A DNA stretch of 40,196 bases from an uncultured Granulosicoccaceae bacterium (lineage in GTDB: Bacteria > Pseudomonadota > Gammaproteobacteria > CALCKW01): NCBI GenBank assembly GCA_937925815.1, contig CALAMQ010000047.1, positions 1-40,196 on the forward strand, written 5' to 3'. Position numbers and translations under genes: made by a program. Every line of letters begins with the position of its first letter. Within the stretch, counting starts at the first letter, position 1. Below are positions 3,732 through 6,316 of this stretch, one piece after another. The notes under the pieces were generated by a model. It saw only the letters and a list, made by a program, of their open reading frames with translations, was not told the origin of the DNA and searched no databases.

Positions 3732-4652
3732 CTATTTCACCACCCGGCAGTCAGCCGGGTGCGTCGGCTCGCGCGCTTCCCAAAGCTGCTCCTTCACCAA
3801 CACCACACTCGCCCCGATGAGCACTGCGGCGCCAATAAACACATTGGCAGAAGGCCACTCAGAGAACACCGCGGCACCAATCAGCACCATCCAAATAAAT
3901 TGGGAATTGACCAGGAGTGAGAAAAAATGCACGGGCACGCGCTTGACGGCCTCAAGTGCGAGCCACCGAGACAAAAACATGAGCAACGCGTAGAGCGCCA
4001 CCCACAGCAGATCCACCACGTCCATCGGTTTGTAAACAGAGGGCAAGGCCGCCAGCATCACCACAGCCATGACAACATGCGTGTACAACATCAGTGACAT
4101 CGGGCGGTACTCCCGCTGGCTGATATAACGTGTCAACACAATCGAAAGCGTGCCGGTCAGCACACCAATACTCGCCGCTAGGTACCCGACCAGTTTCCCA
4201 TCGGGTGCACTTGGGAACAGCAACGCAACACCAATACCGCCACCGGCCAAGGCGAGCCAACTACGCGCACCCACCCGGTCTCCCAGAATGGGTTTTGCCA
4301 CCACGCCAGAGAGCAGCGGTGCGAGCCCGATGAACAAAAACACCTCGGCAAAATCGAGGAATTTAAAGGCGTAGTAATAGCCCGCAACGGCGGTGCAAGC
4401 GAATACACACCGGCCCGCCATGGCTTTGGGAAATTCAGTGCGCCACTCCAGCTTTTCCGCGGTTGCCCGTGCCGTGATCACTGAGAATACACAGATGCAC
4501 AAAGCGGACAACACAAAGAGTTGCGGCGCCTCGAATCCGCTTGCGAAATGCTTGACGATGCCGTCGCACGCAGCGGCAATAAACGTGAACAACAACGTGA
4601 TCCCGACGCTGAACCACACCGTGCGAACACGATTCTTGGCAGATACATCCAT
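3732..4652 (-). CDS. DMT superfamily (EamA) transporter, putative exporter of the peptide cassette
   Basis: Integral inner-membrane protein of 306 residues with about ten hydrophobic segments in two EamA halves. Segments include VWFSVGITLLFTFIAAACDG at the start, VFLFIGLAPLLSGVVAKPILGDRVG (the end of a first EamA unit) and VFSEWPSANVFIGAAVLIGASVVLV (the end of the second). EamA proteins export small metabolites, amino acids or nucleotides. The start ATG at 4652 shares a base with the stop of the 355-residue protein (TGATG), so the two are translationally coupled and probably act together; an in-frame GTG one codon earlier is less likely. From its position I infer that it exports the product of the small repeated peptide gene or a derived molecule. 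That role is inference; a generic metabolite exporter is the alternative. Confidence 0.88.
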   Translation of the reverse strand: MDVSAKNRVRTVWFSVGITLLFTFIAAACDGIVKHFASGFEAPQLFVLSALCICVFSVITARATAEKLEWRTEFPKAMAGRCVFACTAVAGYYYAFKFLDFAEVFLFIGLAPLLSGVVAKPILGDRVGARSWLALAGGGIGVALLFPSAPDGKLVGYLAASIGVLTGTLSIVLTRYISQREYRPMSLMLYTHVVMAVVMLAALPSVYKPMDVVDLLWVALYALLMFLSRWLALEAVKRVPVHFFSLLVNSQFIWMVLIGAAVFSEWPSANVFIGAAVLIGASVVLVKEQLWEAREPTHPADCRVVK

Positions 4653-5719
4653 CACCTAGGCACGGCAACTGATCGACTGAAATGATGGAAAAATTCGTCA
4701 AACTTCGGGCAACTCGCGCTCAGCGCGTGGATGTGGGTACGCGCGACATCACTCAACGCATCACCAGCGTCGCGGCTAAAGGCGCCCCAATCCCCAGTTC
4801 TCCGCTCAGCAGAACGCCATAAAATGCCGGACAATTCACGCAGTGGCGTCGGTTGGCGCAGTCTGGATCCGCGGCTAAACACAGCGTCCGAGGCGGTGAA
4901 TCCATTTGCGAGCAACGCACCACCAGCGAGCGACTCCGCCCACCCGAGCGTGAGTGCTTCGTGGTAAAAATCATTACCAGGCATGTTCGTCCCTGACTCT
5001 GTCGCAACTACGGATCCGTGTGCAGCGCGCGCGACATGCTGCCAGTAAAACGGGGGCTCCACCCCGCAATAGCGCAACGCCACGAGCACCTCAGCTAAGA
5101 GGTCGACGTCGTCATCCAACAACGCCACCATTCCAGCATACTCCAAGGACGTCTTGAGATCAGCTAACCACGCTGGATTGTTCATCCCGTACCCACTGAT
5201 GTAAAACACAGCGTGGGTCAGCTCAAAAGCCGCTTTTCGATTAGGCACCGCAAAATACGGCGCGTTGACGCAGAAATTCCTGACTCGATCCAGCAGCGCA
5301 GCGTCCGGTTCCGACGCGGAATTAAACGGGCTTGTTAGCCAATGTGTTTCCAGCCGTTGCAAGTCAGACAACTCACCGGCAACAAAACGCTGATTCAAAA
5401 CAAACTGGTTGAGCGATGAGTATGTGTCGCCGGAAAAACCGAGTAATTCGAGGTCTCGGCAAATAGACAAAATAAAACGGTAGTATTGCGGAAAGAATTG
5501 AAGCCGCAGCGGGGCCTCTTGGTAAAAACGCTCGTAGCAAGCAAGACTCGCGACGGACACAGGCGACTCTGTGCAGGTGAGCACCCGCAGCAACTCTGAA
5601 TTTTCTTTTAGCCAGTACACATCCTCAGGTGAACGGCGCCCTGTCGCAAAACACGTCAACAACGAATTGGCGGTTGCACTCTCATCCTGACTTTCTGTGT
5701 TTTTTACCGCGTACAGCAT
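4652..5719 (-). CDS. Protein of unknown function, candidate peptide-modifying enzyme
   Basis: I do not recognise this 355-residue protein with certainty. It appears all-helical and soluble, with no signal peptide. The most striking stretch is AAFELTHAVFYISGYG (about residues 163-178), followed by LLDDDVDLLAEVLVALRYCG (200-219) and NDFYHEALTLGWAESLAGG (249-267). The pattern of TH..FY, an acidic helix and a later YH recalls, from memory only, uncharacterised helical DUF6895-type proteins, whose conserved His residues could form an active site. It is not a radical SAM, YcaO, LanM, ATP-grasp or DUF692 enzyme: none of their motifs is present. It lies between a small repeat-containing peptide gene and an EamA exporter on the same strand and is coupled to the exporter by a one-base overlap. 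An AGGGG Shine-Dalgarno lies 7 bases before the ATG. A peptide-modifying or peptide-binding role is inferred from context. Confidence 0.85.
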   Translation of the reverse strand: MLYAVKNTESQDESATANSLLTCFATGRRSPEDVYWLKENSELLRVLTCTESPVSVASLACYERFYQEAPLRLQFFPQYYRFILSICRDLELLGFSGDTYSSLNQFVLNQRFVAGELSDLQRLETHWLTSPFNSASEPDAALLDRVRNFCVNAPYFAVPNRKAAFELTHAVFYISGYGMNNPAWLADLKTSLEYAGMVALLDDDVDLLAEVLVALRYCGVEPPFYWQHVARAAHGSVVATESGTNMPGNDFYHEALTLGWAESLAGGALLANGFTASDAVFSRGSRLRQPTPLRELSGILWRSAERRTGDWGAFSRDAGDALSDVARTHIHALSASCPKFDEFFHHFSRSVAVPR

Positions 5720-5911
5720 CCCTTCACCCCTATTCGTTCGGTTTCCGCCATAGAACCATCATCAACGCAATAGCGCCTTTCAAAACGGACCAGTGCCACA
5801 AGCCAAGACTACTTCAGACACCAAAAACCGGCGTAAAAAACAGCAGAAAGCGTGTCACCGTCGCTGTGAGTGTGATCGATAAGGGGGTTGCCGATGTTTC
5901 ACACTAACCGC

Positions 5912-5949
5912 AAAAACCTGCCACCGATTATTCGCAACTCGGTGGCAGG
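5912..5949 (-). terminator. Intrinsic terminator/attenuator after the small peptide gene
   Basis: On the minus strand a perfect 10-bp stem CCTGCCACCG/CGGTGGCAGG with a 13-base loop is followed at once by TTTTTG, the classic form of a rho-independent terminator. It lies about 80 bases after the stop of the 73-residue peptide gene and about 190 bases before the 355-residue protein. It could end most transcripts after the peptide gene and let a fraction read through, giving much peptide and little enzyme and exporter, as is common in peptide loci. The rest of the 309-base gap (5720-6028) holds no gene that I can support and no convincing second promoter. Confidence 0.75.
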
Positions 5950-6028
5950 CAACCGCGAAAATATTACACAATCAAGGCCGCCGCGTTCGTCCGTTGAACA
6001 ACGTGACCTTCAGTGCAATAGTTTTTGA

Positions 6029-6250
6029 TTAAGCGGTGTAGCAGCCGTACAACTCAGAACCGGCGCCAGAGTGCGACGTACCGGCGCGCTGGGTGTAGCA
6101 TCCAAGCAGCTCTGTGCCAGCACCAGAGTGCATTGAGCCTGCTGCAAGGGTGTAGCAACCGAAGAGCTCGGTGCCTTCGCCAGCGAACATCATACTGTCT
6201 TCGACAATTGCGTCCTGTGAAGAGACGACTTCTTGAGTCATTGCGTGCAT
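6029..6250 (-). CDS. Multi-core RiPP-like precursor peptide (three GCYT repeats)
   Basis: A 73-residue peptide with a leader-like N-terminus (residues 1-23, acidic, containing QEVVSSQDAIVEDS) and three tandem units: GEGTELFGCYTLAAGSMHS (24-42), GAGTELLGCYTQRAGTSHS (43-61) and GAGSELYGCYTA (62-73). The invariant part is G-x-G-(T/S)-E-L-x-G-C-Y-T, one Cys per unit, with a linker (x-x-A-G-x-x-H-S) between units. There is no secretion signal or membrane segment. The start is ATG 6250: a GGAGG Shine-Dalgarno at 6260-6264 stands 9 bases before it, while the in-frame TTG at 6259 would abut the GGAGG. Gly and Leu third codon positions differ between units while the residues stay the same, so the repeats are kept by protein-level selection. 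This architecture (leader plus repeated Cys cores, terminator, unknown enzyme, exporter) fits a RiPP precursor. I know of no named family with this core; a metal-binding small protein is the alternative. Confidence 0.8.
   Translation of the reverse strand: MHAMTQEVVSSQDAIVEDSMMFAGEGTELFGCYTLAAGSMHSGAGTELLGCYTQRAGTSHSGAGSELYGCYTA
6032..6181 (-). repeat. Three tandem 57-bp coding repeats (core units of the small peptide)
   Basis: Units read on the minus strand are 6125-6181, 6068-6124 and a shortened last unit 6032-6067 of 12 codons. Each encodes G(E/A)G(T/S)EL(F/L/Y)GCYT. The TGC TAC ACC codons are identical in all three, while the Gly, Thr/Ser and Leu codons have drifted synonymously or conservatively, so this is an old, selected repeat and not a recent slippage product. 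Confidence 0.9.
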
Positions 6251-6273
6251 GATTTTCAACCTCCATATTGTTT

Positions 6274-6316
6274 AATCAAGCGCGATTGATTATGCATGCC
6301 GATCGATTTGATGCAA
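6274..6316 (-). promoter_or_regulatory. Predicted promoter and near-palindromic operator of the peptide gene
   Basis: On the minus strand a -10 element CATAAT (6289-6294, 5 of 6 consensus) follows a weak -35 TTGCAT (6311-6316) after 16 bases. Directly downstream, over the expected transcription start, lies the imperfect palindrome AATCAAGCGCGATTGATT (6274-6291; 16 of 18 bases symmetric), ending 9 bases before the GGAGG of the peptide gene. This position suits a repressor operator. No regulator gene lies in the cassette, so the binding protein is unknown. Confidence 0.4.

Follow-up and report, generated by a model that had tools for sequence, protein, structure and literature searches.

Radical S-adenosylmethionine (SAM) epimerases introduce D-residues into ribosomal peptides in two kinds of ribosomally synthesized and post-translationally modified peptides (RiPPs), the proteusins and epipeptides, and RiPP precursors with several core peptides are known among the graspetides, cyanobactins, orbitides, and fungal dikaritins. 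Fungal alpha-factor-type pheromone precursors likewise carry many identical short copies, with a sequence that is specific to the species. MslH, the lasso-peptide epimerase of MS-271, employs His/Asp pairs within a calcineurin-like, metal-dependent fold (PMC10406935), and one member of the Pfam family DUF6895 has been reported, by the title of the article, to be a lasso-peptide epimerase (Shi et al., ACS Catal. 2026; reference 371 in PMC13352647). Here we describe a locus in a 40,196-nucleotide (nt) stretch of DNA from an uncultured Granulosicoccaceae bacterium (contig CALAMQ010000047.1; the whole stretch is referred to as the window), in which a gene for a 73-residue peptide with three repeats is followed by genes for a 355-residue protein of the family DUF6902, from the same superfamily as DUF6895, and for an EamA-type transporter. 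It is very probable that the peptide and the 355-residue protein form a RiPP-like precursor/enzyme pair.

Each of these systems resembles the locus in part. The window protein scores above the DUF6895 cutoff, has the H/D/E/H residues in common with that family, and has a small precursor-like gene upstream like the DUF6895 genes examined, but it is a DUF6902 protein and its precursor is short and multi-core. Genes for a lasso leader peptidase (B) and a macrolactam synthetase (C), by which a lasso peptide cluster is recognized, were absent from the eight neighboring genes of the window tested against Pfam. The protein would work like MslH, by His/Asp acid-base epimerization beside a precursor gene, but with an unrelated fold, predicted to be all-helical and containing no calcineurin domain. 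Unlike the radical-SAM epimerases it has no radical-SAM domain, its only Pfam matches being DUF6902 and DUF6895. Several cores per precursor are shared with graspetides, cyanobactins, orbitides, and dikaritins, whereas their modifying enzymes are absent among the neighbors tested, and the present cores span 4-6 residues. The alpha-factor-type precursors share the many identical, species-specific copies, whereas the present system is bacterial, paired with DUF6902, and has no evident dibasic sites.

The pairing of DUF6902 with repeat peptides extends far beyond the window. Of 395 species in the family of Roseobacter MED193, 109 (about 28%) contain DUF6902 (PF21843), and the surroundings of 105 DUF6902 genes, that of the window included, were examined. 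A multi-repeat open reading frame (ORF) was located on the same strand just upstream of DUF6902 in 102 of 104 evaluable loci, with a median gap of 86 nt, as called by an automatic scan with the leftover loci read by eye. The exceptions were L119 and the very divergent L136, while L137 ends at a contig edge. In L119 (G389), the enzyme groups with peptide-bearing relatives, and a recent loss of the precursor is possible. With one SSGS-type precursor as the query against the 395 genomes, all 94 genomes with a match were DUF6902-positive, and none of the 286 DUF6902-negative genomes had a match (Fisher p about 1e-75, for species that are not independent). The preliminary description of this DNA had proposed that the peptide and the 355-residue protein belong to one module and that co-occurrence in other genomes would support this; the co-occurrence was found, homologs of the protein without a repeat peptide were rare rather than regular, and the peptide is conserved in related species. 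These results refute the explanation that the ORF is fortuitous and that the neighboring enzyme and transporter have no connection with it; this explanation had nothing in its favor after testing and can practically be dismissed.

Two of three other species of the window genus (G001 and G002) contain both genes, and the third contains neither. Their peptides retain the three GxGxELxGCY repeats, while the leader, the linker, and the residue after the repeat are variable. Among these congeners, the proportion of synonymous differences (pS) in the peptide ORF is 0.69-0.79, which is near saturation, and the proportion of nonsynonymous differences (pN) is 0.34-0.39, about half as high. Because the ORF and its three repeats are conserved in two congeners and pS exceeds pN, the comparison identifies the window ORF as a real gene under purifying selection, with predicted translation. 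Its predicted product contains a leader, linkers, and a core region, which is the organization of a RiPP precursor. The three Cys-containing repeats originally described were all found, as a direct repeat of three 35-nt copies that have an exact spacing of 57 nt and are 71-74% identical.

Across the relatives, the repeat unit is about 20 residues long and consists of a G[D/E/G]xxx[L/M/A]F stretch, a four-residue core, often [A/G]P, and then a free linker, with 2-20 repeats per precursor. The core analysis covered 609 repeats from 88 precursors, each with three or more F-anchored repeats. Repeats were included only if they had a G upstream and an aromatic residue, and repeat pairs inside one precursor are not independent. 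On average 94% of repeats carry the consensus core of their precursor, and in 62 of the 88 precursors all cores are identical. When repeats are compared in pairs, amino acid identity reaches 0.93 in the core and 0.95 at the Phe, compared to 0.61 upstream and 0.44 in the linker. Codon differences are synonymous in 86% of cases in the core versus 22% in the linker, which indicates from the sequences that the copies are not simply fresh duplicates and that the core protein sequence is held while its codons drift. The wide variation in repeat number, as in tandem-repeat proteins, would suit a repetitive structural or cell-surface protein that expands by slippage, with DUF6902 as an assembly or modifying factor. 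Against this, the linkers vary freely with just the core constrained, and nearly half of the core codon comparisons differ synonymously, which argues against recently slipped duplicates; we consider this explanation very improbable.

Cores that are uniform within a precursor change between species. There are 37 distinct cores, and the chance that two random precursors share one is 0.08. Parsimony places at least 54 core changes on the enzyme tree, an approximate count as the tree is a quick one with many weak forks. In the close relatives L054 (CSAS) and L055 (SSGS), every copy differs, with enzymes 0.26 changes per site apart. Since copies are identical within a precursor while the core changes between species, the product under selection would be a released short peptide, plausibly a small bioactive compound or a signal specific to the strain or species. 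Core position +4 likely marks the C-terminus of this product, because 54 of 90 precursors end exactly there; SWS-type precursors instead end in a short [G/E/K]P tail. The window cores, [LFY]GCYT, have Cys at +2, and elsewhere cores such as F-SSGS, F-TSWS, and F-TCGL are found. The Cys originally noted in the repeats does not define them, as most relatives have Ser/Thr cores without it. The literal motif G.G.EL.GCYT was rejected as a guide to Rhodobacterales loci, being found in the window genus only; reading all frames upstream of DUF6902 led to the other species with their different cores. Precursor peptides tested against Pfam and NCBIfam had no convincing match. A few precursors contain two different cores (L094, SSGS and STSC; L108, TSSS and TSGS; L067, CSWS and SSLS; L004, TTSG and MTAC), and these are possible intermediates of core switching. 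L131 (G298) has a pair of consecutive repeat ORFs upstream of DUF6902, one with the core FTSGS and the other with FGSSC.

The 355-residue protein, originally described as devoid of known RiPP enzyme motifs, is uncharacterized yet not family-less, since it matches DUF6902 over its full length (E 2.3e-102, 343 bits against a cutoff of 27, residues 8-350) and also passes the cutoff of DUF6895 (E 1.5e-18, 67.6 bits against 23.8, residues 23-222, a partial profile). The Pfam search returned no other catalytic domain and neither a radical-SAM nor a calcineurin match. Residues aligned with H169, D206, E210, and H253 of the window protein are common to the DUF6902 and DUF6895 proteins compared, as seen in an alignment that comprised 105 DUF6902 and three DUF6895 sequences and by searching nine members of the superfamily for the motifs; the last motif (H253) of L154 escaped the search pattern and is visible only in the alignment. 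These four residues may be catalytic. The AlphaFold model, made from eight sequences, is all-helical, with a predicted local distance difference test score (pLDDT) of 82 and a predicted template modeling score (pTM) of 0.86. Searches of the PDB by sequence and by structure (Foldseek) identified no relative (best Foldseek E 0.21), a search with the window protein against plasmids gave no match, and a search of the open-access literature, which misses most subscription journals, yielded no paper on DUF6902.

The model is faintly and nonsignificantly similar to the solenoid-like proteins ComR and PrgX (match probability 0.35-0.38, E about 0.8-1), and the many identical copies with turnover of the core are also reminiscent of pheromone precursors, which would fit an unmodified peptide pheromone with an all-helical DUF6902 protein as its cytoplasmic receptor or chaperone. 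This signaling pair is nevertheless quite improbable. No DNA-binding domain was found in the DUF6902 protein, and the H/D/E/H residues are conserved across a superfamily that includes, going by the title of that report, an epimerase. Co-variation with the core would also be expected of a receptor, but the close enzymes of L054 and L055 serve different cores.

Beyond the Roseobacter family, DUF6895 genes also directly follow genes for small precursor-like peptides. In L153, from the same class as the window, the peptide has two GELxGPWxxx-type repeats, in L154 there are two WTFxSxNYVYKG repeats, and L152 has two peptides containing GRWYV and GPWFV. In L152-L154 and in Kitasatospora, Streptomyces, and Pseudalkalibacillus plasmids, the small peptide before DUF6895 consists of a leader-like part and an end rich in W, F, or Y. 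The plasmid loci encode a peptide of 65-118 residues directly upstream, with a leader-like 'SGL[IVL]' stretch, and the Kitasatospora and Streptomyces plasmid peptides end like GYVLAWDKYVLVV. The window motif GxELxGCY is intermediate between the Roseobacter-type repeats and the DUF6895-type repeats (GGELVGPW). At positions 2266-8700 of L152 (G597), the DUF6895 gene and its two peptides are located near a papain/C39-like protease, an MFS-like protein, and a methyltransferase-like gene, giving a fuller, biosynthetic-looking cluster. An apparent operon at 3833-7688 of L170 (Streptomyces fungicidicus plasmid p1) encodes two DUF6895-like proteins in tandem, a 62-residue small protein, and a serine hydrolase.

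We think it probable, with less assurance than for the pairing itself, that the locus belongs to an undescribed multi-core RiPP-like system in which DUF6902 is a peptide epimerase that acts on repeated cores. What we infer of the modification and its nature, and of the cleavage, export, and biological role of the peptide, is as follows. The precursor would hold several copies of one short core, and DUF6902 would bind each repeat through the conserved G[D/E/G]xxx[L/M/A]F stretch and alter the backbone of each core with no need for a particular side chain, most likely by L-to-D epimerization. The acid and base residues may come from the conserved His/Asp/Glu/His set. Unlinked host proteases would then free several identical short peptides, which EamA would export where it is present. 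No single side chain is common to all cores, so backbone chemistry fits better than side chain chemistry; epimerization is favored because of the precedent set by the title of the DUF6895 report, the conserved set of two His and acidic residues, and the tolerance of core side chains. An enzyme activity of DUF6902 is proposed from that same precedent, and DUF6902 adjoins the precursor in nearly all loci.

Several points weigh against this reading. We know of no mass spectrum, product, or activity for any DUF6902 protein, and the epimerase precedent is an analogy drawn from a title cited second-hand, about a protein of the same superfamily but of another Pfam family. The putative active site is unconfirmed and lies in a predicted all-helical structure that matches no solved one. 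No protease gene accompanies the pair, 22 of the 105 loci have no adjacent EamA gene, and EamA proteins usually carry small metabolites. Finally, 87 of the 88 Rhodobacterales-type consensus cores have Ser, Thr, or Cys at +2 and the remaining one has N; the window cores have Cys there, and in most cases Phe or Tyr precedes the core. This could point instead to a RiPP-like system in which DUF6902 performs other chemistry on the +2 Ser/Thr/Cys or on the Phe, such as dehydration, backbone cyclization, oxidation, or peptide-bond rearrangement. We regard such other chemistry as unlikely, given that DUF6895 relatives adjoin peptides with Pro, Arg, or Trp at matching positions (GPWFV and GRWYV), that a few DUF6902 cores have no S/T/C at +2 (YIAGL, L134), and that Pfam shows no other catalytic domain. 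There is a real chance that this RiPP-like system is a new class, as originally proposed, and the chemistry itself may not be new given the reported title of the DUF6895 study. A more specific version remains tentative and rather doubtful: a new RiPP class, widespread among marine Rhodobacterales, in which a polyprotein-like precursor yields many copies of a species-specific signal peptide of 4-6 residues that contains D-amino acids, a single all-helical DUF6902 protein is the epimerase, and sets of cores switch together between close species.

The pair is present in about 28% of the sampled species of an ecologically important marine bacterial family, and its natural library of at least 37 cores with matching enzymes offers a direct and cheap test of DUF6902 function. 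If the cores are species-specific signals, roseobacters would possess a new system of communication by peptides; otherwise, DUF6902 would still represent a previously undescribed RiPP-like enzyme family with multi-core substrates, able to accept cores of widely differing sequence.

The features of the locus, which is transcribed in the order peptide, enzyme, EamA, are collected in Table 1. The EamA ORF starts with GTG or ATG and, as first described, overlaps the stop of the enzyme gene as TGATG; its product matches Pfam EamA (PF00892) in two stretches (E 2e-12, 48 bits against a cutoff of 28.2). An EamA gene is detectable in 83 of the 105 loci, in each case immediately after DUF6902 and on its strand. 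The coupled exporter of the preliminary description is therefore a common part of the module and a dispensable one, and because it is missing at some loci, the comparison defines the peptide and DUF6902 as the minimal unit. In loci without it, the next genes, read from sequence, are mostly HesB/erpA-like and dgt-like, with no other exporter evident.

Table 1 Features of the peptide/DUF6902/EamA locus in the window
Feature	Position	Strand	Basis
Precursor peptide gene, 73 residues, short leader and three GxGxELxGCY(T) repeats (ATG 6250, stop 6029)	6029..6250	minus	ORF, translation, congener conservation
Repeat 1, GEGTELFGCYT	6149..6183	minus	direct repeat family D1, translation
Repeat 2, GAGTELLGCYT	6092..6126	minus	direct repeat, translation
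Repeat 3, GAGSELYGCYT, then C-terminal Ala	6035..6069	minus	direct repeat, translation
Enzyme gene, 355 residues, Pfam DUF6902 (PF21843), also above the DUF6895 (PF21836) cutoff	4652..5719	minus	ORF, Pfam
EamA/DMT-type membrane transporter gene, translationally coupled (TGATG)	3732..4655	minus	ORF, Pfam
Conserved promoter/ribosome-binding block (TGnATAATCnAnCGCGCTTGATTAA..CAATAtGGAG.GTTGAAAATC) before peptide start	6251..6297	minus	three-congener comparison
Terminator-like hairpin between peptide and enzyme genes, T5 tail 5912-5916	5917..5949	minus	folding

A stretch of about 45 nt that precedes the peptide start, with an ATAAT element and GGAG as the ribosome site, is nearly identical in the three congeneric species, and the sequence farther upstream has diverged. 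The palindrome that had been placed over the peptide promoter is weak, an imperfect inverted repeat (74%, or arms of 4-6 nt) inside this block; it was rejected as an operator, as its arms are incompletely conserved, and what stands is the conserved block itself. The terminator-like hairpin is real, with a 12-bp stem followed by T5, a folding z-score of -4.9, and none of 200 shuffles equally stable; an automatic hairpin scan omitted it, as its loop exceeds the length allowed. It may well reduce read-through in the window strain. Its proposed role as an attenuator was rejected as a general feature, since a hairpin-like element was found in 11 of 94 loci versus 5 of 94 shuffled, with no clear enrichment, and a hairpin looked for in G002 was not found.

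Contigs of G153 and G430 (L171 and L172) and of G001 stop inside or beside the precursor gene, and in G001 the break separates it from the DUF6902 gene; draft assemblies therefore probably split these repeat genes or miss some of them. What looked like second precursors on other contigs proved, where checked (G153 and G430), to be contig ends broken at repeats and was rejected. The window neighbors identified by Pfam are genes of ordinary metabolism, encoding an amidase, a transketolase, a ribulose-phosphate epimerase, a fatty-acid oxidation multienzyme and two acyl-CoA dehydrogenases, a LysR regulator, and a HAD hydrolase. In many roseobacters (L003, L005-L008, and many of L042-L136), the cassette is located at one chromosomal site, flanked by an xthA-like gene on one side and HesB/erpA-like, dgt-like, and argS-like genes on the other. 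Its presence at a fixed site yet in only about a quarter of species suggests repeated loss or gain.

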